Shown here piece after piece: positions 4,502-54,162 of a DNA stretch of 64,000 nt. Numbering within the stretch: the first letter of the stretch is position 1; every line of letters begins with the position of its first letter. A model generated the notes under the pieces. The model made no database searches. It had not been told where the DNA came from and saw only the letters and a program-made list of their open reading frames with translations. A program made the translations under genes and the position numbers. This stretch comes from Natronomonas moolapensis 8.8.11 (GTDB lineage Archaea > Halobacteriota > Halobacteria > Halobacteriales > Haloarculaceae): positions 1,054,001 to 1,118,000 of the forward strand of contig NC_020388.1 of the NCBI RefSeq assembly GCF_000591055.1, read 5' to 3'.

Positions 4502-4586
4502 GCGAGGGTGGCCGAGCTTGGACAAAAGCGGCGGACTTAAGATCCGCTCCCGTAGGGGTCCGTGGGTTCGAATCCCTCCCCTCGCA
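4502..4586 (+). tRNA. tRNA-Leu (anticodon UAA)
   Basis: The acceptor stem GCGAGGG (4502-4508) pairs with CCCTCGC (4579-4585), and A4586 is the discriminator base. The anticodon stem GCGGA/TCCGC encloses the loop CTTAAGA, giving anticodon TAA. A long variable arm of about CCCGTAGGGG marks a class II tRNA. The T arm has the loop TTCGAAT with one apparent T-T mismatch in the stem (4563/4577). CCA is not encoded. The 3' end of the gene is part of a 99-bp duplication. Confidence 0.93.
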
Positions 4587-4663
4587 TAGCGAGATCGTGA
4601 GCGCCAGCGAACGATCTCGACAGCGAACGGCGAACGCACGTGAGCCGTGAGCACTCGTCAGCT
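4565..4663. repeat. 99-bp direct repeat, copy 1, overlapping the tRNA-Leu 3' end
   Basis: The sequence from the T loop of tRNA-Leu through 4663 is repeated identically at 4732-4830, an offset of 167 bp. It contains the last 22 bases of the tRNA followed by about 77 bp of flank. That flank has internal GTGAGCGCCAGCGAACGATC-type sub-repeats, which recur partly at 4841-4861. Tyrosine recombinases often use tRNA 3' ends as attachment sites, but there is no integrase beside this repeat. Confidence 0.9.
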
Positions 4664-4731
4664 TAAACGCACGTGAGAGCTGTGCGAGTGCGCGGAGGAT
4701 TCGAATCAGGGAAGAGCGTTGCTCTGACCGT

Positions 4732-4830
4732 GGTTCGAATCCCTCCCCTCGCATAGCGAGATCGTGAGCGCCAGCGAACGATCTCGACAGCGAACGGCGA
4801 ACGCACGTGAGCCGTGAGCACTCGTCAGCT
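4732..4830. repeat. 99-bp direct repeat, copy 2 (tRNA-Leu 3' remnant)
   Basis: This identical copy of 4565-4663 begins with the tRNA T-loop sequence GGTTCGAAT and includes the full 3' acceptor strand without a 5' tRNA half. The 68 bp between the copies (4664-4731) holds a short palindrome AGAGC-GTT-GCTCT and another ATTCGAAT core. The arrangement looks like the scar of an excised or minimal integrative element, or a local duplication. No gene is present across 4587-5035. Confidence 0.9.
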
Positions 4831-4874
4831 CGAACGCACGCGAGCGCCAGCGAACGATCCCGGAAGCGAACAAA

Positions 4875-53055: not shown

Positions 53056-54162
53056 CTATCGAGGCGGATCGAACTGTTCACGAATCGACGCGAACTCTTG
53101 CCCGCGACCGTGCGAATAGTGTTGAGTTGTCTGTGGATCACGATGGTTCGCCACTAATTGTCGATACGGAAGCGGGACGCCAGCTTCTTTCATCAGTGTG
53201 AAACACGTATGCCGCAAGGTATGCACCGTTACACGGTGCCACTCCCTTACGTTGTTATTTGCCTCCGAGTGCTTGCCTTGCCCTGGCGGCACCTCGGATG
53301 TTGCAAGCACTTCCTGAATGCCTGCTCGCTCAGCTGCTGACCTGATAATCGTGTTCAACCCCCCGTTTGTTTCTAGCTTGGCTCCGTTACACGCGGGAAA
53401 CAGGTACTGGCTGTCTACCCTTGGGGCGTACCCGTCTCGGTACTGATCACACCATATTTGCAGCTCAATTCGAAGGTCACGGCTGATCGGTACATCGTAC
53501 GGCACCGAGTTCTTGGGGTTGTGAACGTGGATCTCTCCCGAGTCAAAGTCCACATCACTTACCCGAATATTCCGCAGATCAGAATTCCGCAGCCCGGTTT
53601 CGACAGCGACAACTGCCAGTAGACGGTTCCGGTAACTATTCATCGCATCGAACAGTTTTCGCAGCTCTTCTTGAGTGAGCGCCTCGCGTTCAATAGGCGG
53701 CGGCACGTTATACTCTGCTAGATCAATCCTCTCCAATTCGATCGGGTCAATCGTCAGCGCCTCAGCGGCAGCAGTTCGTAGCCGGATGAATACGTACAGT
53801 TCTCGTACCGTCGTTAGTTTTGACTCGATCGTGGACCGGCGGTTCCCTTGATCTACGCAGTGTTCAACGAACTCGATAACATCAGTGAGATCGGCATCGA
53901 GTAGATGCACTTCGCGATCTTGAAGGAACGCTGCGTACTGACTAAGATTCTGCTCGTATGTCGTCGTCGAGCTAGCGGTGAGCTGCCGTCCACTGCGTGT
54001 TTCTAAGTACGCACAAATGAACGGGCACGAGACTGAGAATCGGTCTGGGTTCTCTACACTTGGCTCGAACTCTTCGAACGATGACTGCTGTGCCAGGTCA
54101 GAAACACGAGCCGGTACGTGATCCATCAGCCAATTCTTGTCGGGCAATATGCTCGGTGTCAT
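53056..54162 (-). CDS. Tyrosine recombinase / integrase
   Basis: This 368-residue protein has an N-terminal SAM-like core-binding domain (about 50-135) and a catalytic domain with Arg192 in TGLRNSDL, His314-x-x-Arg317 in HTLRHT, His340 in NHRDPQTT and Tyr349 in QHYSHG. It resembles XerC/D-type archaeal integrases. Its 5' end overlaps the upstream DNA-binding gene by 4 bp. It probably mobilises the island; the near-palindromes at 52710-52803 are candidate sites. Confidence 0.92.
   Translation of the reverse strand: MTPSILPDKNWLMDHVPARVSDLAQQSSFEEFEPSVENPDRFSVSCPFICAYLETRSGRQLTASSTTTYEQNLSQYAAFLQDREVHLLDADLTDVIEFVEHCVDQGNRRSTIESKLTTVRELYVFIRLRTAAAEALTIDPIELERIDLAEYNVPPPIEREALTQEELRKLFDAMNSYRNRLLAVVAVETGLRNSDLRNIRVSDVDFDSGEIHVHNPKNSVPYDVPISRDLRIELQIWCDQYRDGYAPRVDSQYLFPACNGAKLETNGGLNTIIRSAAERAGIQEVLATSEVPPGQGKHSEANNNVREWHRVTVHTLRHTCFTLMKEAGVPLPYRQLVANHRDPQTTQHYSHGRGQEFASIREQFDPPR

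Follow-up and report, generated by a model that had tools for sequence, protein, structure and literature searches.

Introduction

The 3' ends of tRNA genes are usually read as hot spots for the integration of viruses and plasmids. Integrative elements with attachment (att) sites at these ends, and CIME-like leftovers beside them, are among the closest known systems to the arrangement described here. Like the unit that we report, integrative elements show a direct repeat of the tRNA end, a displaced native flank, and relatives in which the site is empty. Unlike them, our unit has no integrase, measures about 100–170 bp, carries one core at many different tRNAs, and contains an inverted tRNA end. 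The 178-bp repeats of E. coli tyrT, associated with rtT RNA, provide another comparison, since they lie in tandem behind the tRNA, each with the tRNA's last nucleotides. The haloarchaeal unit likewise contains the tRNA 3' end and can occur in tandem. In contrast to rtT, however, haloarchaeal units are found in many genera and behind many tRNAs, with an inverted tRNA end (S') and a conserved hairpin (h2). REP/BIME palindromes and IS200/IS605 hairpins are conserved, imperfect, and geneless, and are possibly acted on in trans; our unit differs from both in lying mostly at tRNA 3' ends and in having arms that appear to be copied from the target.

Short, geneless repeats with palindromes or inverted ends have also been described within the haloarchaea, as the PATEs and SMRs of Haloquadratum walsbyi. 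The portion of that description dealing with these repeats records no target duplication and no tie to tRNA ends (PMC3119063), whereas our unit duplicates the tRNA end and copies it inversely. The absence of target duplication given there for PATEs, which are IS605-derived, does not hold for our unit, in which the tRNA end is duplicated (PMC3119063). Searching the open-access literature by title and the start of the abstract, we found no earlier description of these units, although one may still be published elsewhere.

Results

A duplicated tRNA end and a long hairpin behind tRNA-Leu(UAA)

The window, by which we mean the whole 64-kb stretch of DNA that was analysed, corresponds to G000:C1:1054001-1118000 of a complete 2,912,573-bp chromosome, G000 being the window's own genome. 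The resident gene, tRNA-Leu(UAA), occupies positions 4502..4586 on the + strand (ARAGORN; Rfam RF00005). Its last 20 bases, running from the T-loop to the last tRNA base (S, 4567..4586, +), are repeated exactly at 4734, and a 20-mer search places this second tRNA 3' end (S2) at 4734..4753 (+). The 20-nt tRNA end TTCGAATCCCTCCCCTCGCA has 2 sites in 64 kb at ≤3 mismatches, where shuffles predict 0.05; no third copy is present in the window at that threshold. Both ends belong to a longer direct repeat read from the sequence, with copy 1 (S and 77 nt of flank) at 4565..4663 (+) and copy 2 (S2 and 77 nt of flank) at 4732..4830 (+). The first-pass annotation had described an identical 99-nt duplication at the tRNA-Leu(UAA) end, with 77 of the 99 nt outside the tRNA, an interval of 68 bp (4664-4731), and a spacing of 167, and our analysis confirms each of these points, 4565-4663 and 4732-4830 being exactly the same. 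The full repeat is somewhat longer (4565-4680 and 4732-4847; 116 nt, 97% identical, 167 from start to start), and its copies begin 2 bases ahead of the T-loop (TTCGAAT, 4567).

The duplicated flank (4587..4663, +) contains small hairpins and resembles the sequence directly 3' of tRNA-Leu(UAA) in relatives that lack the unit (80–89% over aligned positions in L004-L006). By itself, this flank (4587-4663) is no more stable than its shuffles (z -0.6). It is followed by a hairpin of the H1 type (CAGCT..AGCTG, 4659..4682, +), which was read from the sequence; similar sequence is present in L002, L003, L009, and L012. Behind H1 lies an imperfect inverted copy of the tRNA 3' end, S' (TGCGAG..GGAGGATTCGAA, 4683..4705, +), and then a type-A h2 core (TCAGGGA-stem-loop-stem-GACCGTGG, 4706..4733, +). 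The core was assigned with a covariance model, R1, which matches 4694-4746 with an E value of 1.6e-15; this match is given by construction, as the window sequence is one of the model's 48. The layout at the window is thus S - H1 - S' - h2 - S2.

In the predicted fold, a single long hairpin (4683-4753) is built from the interval together with the second copy, and S' pairs with the 4734-4753 side, that is with S2, around h2. This hairpin had escaped the first-pass annotation, as had the presence of the same arrangement behind other tRNA genes. The DNA fold has a z score of -5.2 for 4664-4757, in which the small H1 stem (4659..4682) is left unpaired, and of -4.8 for the overlapping stretch 4691-4747. 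When 4567-4707 is folded instead (z -4.4), S' pairs with S on its upstream side. Folded as RNA, 4502-4870 gives a z score of -7.2 with the tRNA included.

Related units occur behind many haloarchaeal tRNA genes

A BLAST search of the interval against 60 genomes returned matches behind other tRNAs. A pattern composed of the core and the T-loop found 56 matches in 54 stretches of public genomes, all haloarchaeal by title except for one titled only Euryarchaeota. A same-strand tRNA lies upstream of 54 of the 56 public matches, and the other two have just 39 and 22 upstream bases. Because the pattern contained the T-loop, it is biased to tRNA-like ends but unbiased as to whether a match sits downstream of a tRNA. 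With the window included, 55 units span 20 anticodons, and across the alignments an h2 hairpin common to units behind different tRNAs can be recognised. S2 is identical to S from the T-loop to the last base in 32 of the 55 units, 29 of which have a repeat that ends no more than 5 nt from the end of the tRNA; the window, where it runs 97 nt from the T-loop, is one of the three exceptions. The suggestion in the first-pass annotation that the duplication might be the seed of a repeat family therefore comes close, except that the locus is a member of a family that is already widespread.

The R1 alignment comprises 48 of 53 distinct sequences, the other five having been omitted without design. On the named structure, 93.2% of its cells are paired (shuffles, 87.0%), with a covariation score of 0.197 (shuffles, 0.098); none of 500 shuffles reaches either value. 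Seven pairs are changed on both sides, a number that 180 of the 500 shuffles also reach. These figures have to be read knowing that most core columns are fixed by the search pattern and that kinship alone can push an alignment above such shuffles. Free on both sides are four T-stem pairs, two h2 stem pairs, and one T-loop pair (A/G). The clearest support for the R1 structure comes from a sliding control, in which 25.7–43.0% of cells are paired when the structure is shifted by 1–3 columns. R1 matches 52 of 60 genomes of the order, its own included, at an E value of 0.01. In a phylum-wide draw of 148 genomes (E 0.001) it matches 21 of the 24 same-order genomes listed and none of the other 124, which on the listed entries (17 of the 124) fall outside the order.

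In three genomes, the R1 matches lie behind a tRNA in 2 of 2 (G000), 19 of 19 (G055), and 16 of 17 cases (G027), opposite-strand matches on the same hairpins (1, 1, and 4, respectively) having been dropped. Three of these 37 tRNA-linked matches were recognised only by an intron-aware or local tRNA search; these apparent orphans are one match in G055 and one in G027 behind an intron-containing tRNA-Trp, and one in G027 behind tRNA-Pro(CGG). The idea that model matches far from RF00005 tRNAs mark the ends of large elements was rejected, as tRNAs were found upstream of them. The single R1 match without a tRNA is a solo core at G027:C1:2292823.

The type-A core can also be searched for bare, without its T-loop, and this pattern gave 63 matches in 35 of 146 genomes (reversed-pattern control, 0). 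Among 30 such loci, taken one per genome, a tRNA is found no more than 400 nt upstream in 24 and at 444 nt in one, and the core is followed by the exact sequence GTTCRAAT in 12. At L232, L234, L248, L249, and L250, the type-A hairpin has different arms and the 700 nt upstream contain no tRNA. The first-pass annotation had regarded copies beside many unrelated genes as the mark of a dispersed repeat, and on this point the answer is mixed: in the three genomes, 37 of 38 T-loop-armed model matches follow a tRNA, but 5 of the 30 bare h2-A loci have no tRNA within 700 nt upstream.

A second core, type B, consists of AGTCGCAG...GACCGTCT followed by GGTTCRAATC and was found in 57 of 146 genomes (control, 0). 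We typed 82 distinct inner stretches, of which 47 were symmetric by the criterion of the analysis; tandem G-A/A-G mismatches are present in 46 of these 47 and C-GNA-G loops in 38. Tandem G-A and C-GNA-G motifs form very stable DNA hairpins, although such motifs do not prove a role as DNA. The inner stems of type B hold G-T mismatches 5 times and A-C mismatches once, a weak strand signal, and in the outer T-stem arms G-T is not preferred (22 G-T, 23 A-C). Both cores are kept across the order with compensatory changes.

Several loci extend this picture. A further hairpin class, found at L141, L142, L175, L181, L183, and L203, is joined at the 3' strand of the T-stem and not at the T-loop; L142 provides an example (CTCGCAAAC..GTTTGCTCA), and in some of these loci an upstream inverted copy is visible by eye. 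At L235, L236, L240, and L257, S2 stands behind tRNA-Thr(CGU) and tRNA-Trp with a T-loop variant, GTTCACAATCC, that is common between genomes. L074 and L094 are contigs of one Natronomonas aquatica draft that both run out near one hairpin core, where the assembly may have broken.

Both arms follow the resident tRNA

A survey that used no core pattern covered all 39 tRNAs detected by RF00005 in G000 and 40 of the 44 in G055, a genome picked for its frequent model matches. At ≤3 mismatches of 20, S2 is present behind 10 of 39 tRNAs in G000 and 17 of 40 in G055 (27 of 79 in total). At ≤5 mismatches the counts rise to 11 and 23, some of which represent another hairpin class. When dissimilar, non-cognate tRNAs were paired with these flanks, an S2-like match appeared in 1 of 1,282 pairs in G000 and 0 of 1,334 in G055 (1 of 2,616 in total). 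In the 27 units, S' is antisense to the T-stem and acceptor of its own tRNA with a score not attained in any of 5,000 permutations; among the 52 tRNAs lacking S2, 385 of 5,000 permutations attain the score of the same antisense test. Across the 53 distinct type-A units, the correspondence of S' to its own tRNA was reached by 0 of 2,000 permutations for the T-stem and 1 of 2,000 for the acceptor. Among 45 folded loci, a set from which longer loci were left out, 43 have half or more of S paired with the S' side.

Taken over the sequences compared, the unit duplicates the resident tRNA 3' end, together with 77 nt of flank at the window, and carries an inverted copy of it as well. Fixed terminal inverted repeats of the MITE type are absent, both arms (S' and S2) varying with the tRNA at which the unit lies. 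In 23 units with a diverged S2, S' is a better fit to the tRNA (S) than to S2 in 17, a worse one in 4, and an equal one in 2. These counts suggest that S' originated as a copy of the resident tRNA, with S2 decaying afterwards.

Empty and filled sites, arrays, and exchange of h2

Judged by aligned flanks, a unit is present in some relatives and absent in others behind the same tRNA gene. At tRNA-Leu(CAA), the flank of the empty locus L217 equals the flank that follows S2 in L221 (82 of 87 identical), and the latter is also 89–92% identical to that of four further empty loci. The L221 sequence after the proximal S is non-native (47 of 63 aligned, low score). At tRNA-Lys(UUU) in the genus, the unit is present in 12 of the 17 genes read and in none of the other 5; the 30 Lys loci were made up of 18 Lys(UUU) entries, with one gene represented twice, and 12 tRNA-Lys(CUU) entries, which do not enter this count. 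Here L265 is filled and has the flank on both sides, as in the window, and L271 is empty and has it once. At tRNA-Leu(UAA), the flanks of the empty loci L004-L006 were compared with those of L009, L012, and L014, and the sequence after S2 outscores that after S in 9 of 9 comparisons; this case is noisier, as the identities overlap and one of the nine is won by a single point.

Units can also share one part and differ in another. The window and L002 have the duplicated flank in common but differ in h2. Conversely, the Gly(UCC) and Gly(GCC) units of G000 have h2 sequences identical at 56 of 60 positions, and the Gly(UCC) and Gly(CCC) units of G055 at 49 of 51, although the 50 nt upstream of h2 barely align in these pairs. 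The 60 nt after h2 are similar too (41 of 48 aligned positions in G000, 55 of 60 in G055), partly because the tRNA ends themselves are similar, and the sharing of h2 in the Gly pairs could come from a longer exchange. The longest array, at the tRNA-Lys(UUU) gene of G000 (L262), contains five copies of S, the gene's own included, at 1585, 1737, 1889, 2041, and 2197, with spacings of 152, 152, 152, and 156 bp.

Units and integrase elements

No integrase gene or remnant lies inside or adjoining the unit, as judged from the 68-bp interval and the PF00589 matches in G000. Downstream of the unit-bearing tRNAs of G000, no PF00589 match is closer than 8.6 kb, and for the window's tRNA the distance is 48 kb. 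The window contains a tyrosine-recombinase gene at 53056-54162 on the - strand (PF00589 match at G000 1107107-1107682). The window unit has no match in phage and plasmid collections, and the three core patterns have none in viral contigs.

One integrase element was examined, in G055. Between two exact tRNA-Lys(CUU) ends, G055:C1:111979-115683 encloses 3.7 kb with an integrase-domain match inside (E 4.8e-4), which passes the cut-off together with neighbouring matches in frame. Beyond the element's distal copy lies a unit with a type-B core and a slightly altered S2, and the 200 bases ahead of the distal tRNA end contain no A or B core. From this one case we infer that the element entered at the tRNA and pushed an older unit aside, the two being independent. 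We had considered the hairpin as an att arm of integrase elements and rejected this, the single element checked having no A/B core before its distal end. A short GCGAGCGAAGCGAG hairpin stands directly before the distal tRNA-Lys(CUU) copy.

Discussion

We think it likely that the locus holds a duplicative unit that arose at the DNA level, as opposed to the scar of an integrase element. The route by which it formed is more tentative, and we would put the particular version set out here at somewhat short of an even chance. In this version, S' and S2 would derive from the resident tRNA by copying in the course of replication or repair, the template changing at the T-loop. A growing strand would fold back at the palindromic H1 and copy the tRNA end as S'. 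It would then switch, via the T-loop TTCRAAT common to most tRNAs (34 of 39 in G000), into a unit at another tRNA and copy h2, and a second switch via the same T-loop would return it to the home tRNA, where S2 and the flank would be copied. Two T-loop switches would produce the arrangement S(home)-H1(home)-S'(home)-h2(shared)-S2(home)-flank(home), as seen in the window and in L265. Arrays would expand or shrink through recombination between identical copies of S, and the hairpin would spread as a minimal passenger without a gene of its own.

Several observations fit this route poorly. The non-native flank after the proximal S of L221 is unexpected from a simple fold-back, and the bare core's occurrence away from tRNAs counts against template switching as well. 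The hairpin class whose junction lies on the 3' strand of the T-stem points towards either a recombinase whose junctions differ between classes or some other route. Moreover, 5 of the 39 G000 T-loops are not TTCRAAT as cut, and one of these tRNAs, Lys(UUU), bears the longest array. Template switching alone leaves L221, the further junction class, the tRNAs with altered T-loops, and the conserved cores not explained. Conservation of the h2 cores could reflect recognition by a protein or a role as RNA. A bolder version, which we regard as unlikely, makes the hairpin a selfish, geneless entity: h2 itself would provoke fold-back and template switching at the T-loop, and each jump would rebuild the arms from the local tRNA in both orientations.

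A trans-acting recombinase is a serious rival, doubtful as we find it overall. A putative recombinase or hairpin transposase supplied in trans would insert the hairpin of a non-autonomous mobile element at T-arms and duplicate the tRNA 3' end. Such an element would account for empty and filled sites, for repeats that stop no more than 5 nt from the tRNA end in 29 of the 32 units with S2 = S, for the conservation of internal-loop motifs in the hairpin cores of many genera, and for the same-strand tRNA ahead of all 54 public matches with enough upstream DNA. Both arms are tRNA-specific, however, and a fixed element would not carry such arms; in addition, the core patterns are unmatched in viral contigs and the window unit in phages and plasmids, and the closest downstream PF00589 match in G000 is 8.6 kb away, although a trans-acting enzyme could be encoded at a distance. 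Improbable, in our estimation, is a transcribed RNA element in which H1 and h2 serve tRNA 3' processing, stability, or a small RNA. The constant position and strand behind tRNAs, the compensatory changes in the h2 stem, the RNA fold of 4502-4870 (z -7.2), and the excess of G-T (5) over A-C (1) in type-B inner stems all agree with it. We rate it as weaker because of patchiness and arm decay: units are patchy among congeners (12 of 17 Lys(UUU) genes) and absent from 52 of the 79 tRNAs read, and the outer T-stem arms hold 22 G-T against 23 A-C. In Rfam, moreover, only tRNA scores over its gathering score and no described RNA family is matched.

The first-pass annotation had also raised the scar of an excised element, and the reading that a classical integrase element at tRNA-Leu(UAA) left an att-site scar or was reduced to a minimal derivative does have points in its favour: direct repeats flank the interval, and the filled and empty geometry equals that of integration. 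The parts of the literature that bear on this describe tRNA 3' ends as common attachment sites (PMC8371274) and 22- and 43-nt tRNA-end repeats at prophage ends (PMC3119063). We nevertheless find this reading very improbable. The 68-bp interval is geneless and too small for an integrase remnant, and the G055 tRNA-Lys(CUU) element has no A/B core before its distal end, with the unit beyond. A scar would also be specific to a single element, yet one compact unit and core is common to 20 tRNA anticodons in 55 units. There is next to no chance, finally, that the window records a chance local tandem duplication unrelated to other loci. Tandem duplications are common and the copies are nearly identical, but this reading is refuted by R1, which matches 52 of 60 genomes (mostly behind tRNAs among the matches whose location was examined), by the 55-unit set, and by the cognate S2 counts.

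If the preferred copying route by template switching is right, nature would have preserved in these units a record of template switches made at a defined sequence that recurs, and the units may be a geneless element whose ends come from the target. Should the selfish form of this route be true, the hairpin would be a replicator that invariably borrows its ends from the target. If a protein or RNA is involved instead, the units would be a frequent post-tRNA feature of haloarchaea that is still without a function. The widespread short duplications of tRNA ends seem to be of an origin other than virus or plasmid integration, and in haloarchaeal annotation they could pass for att scars.
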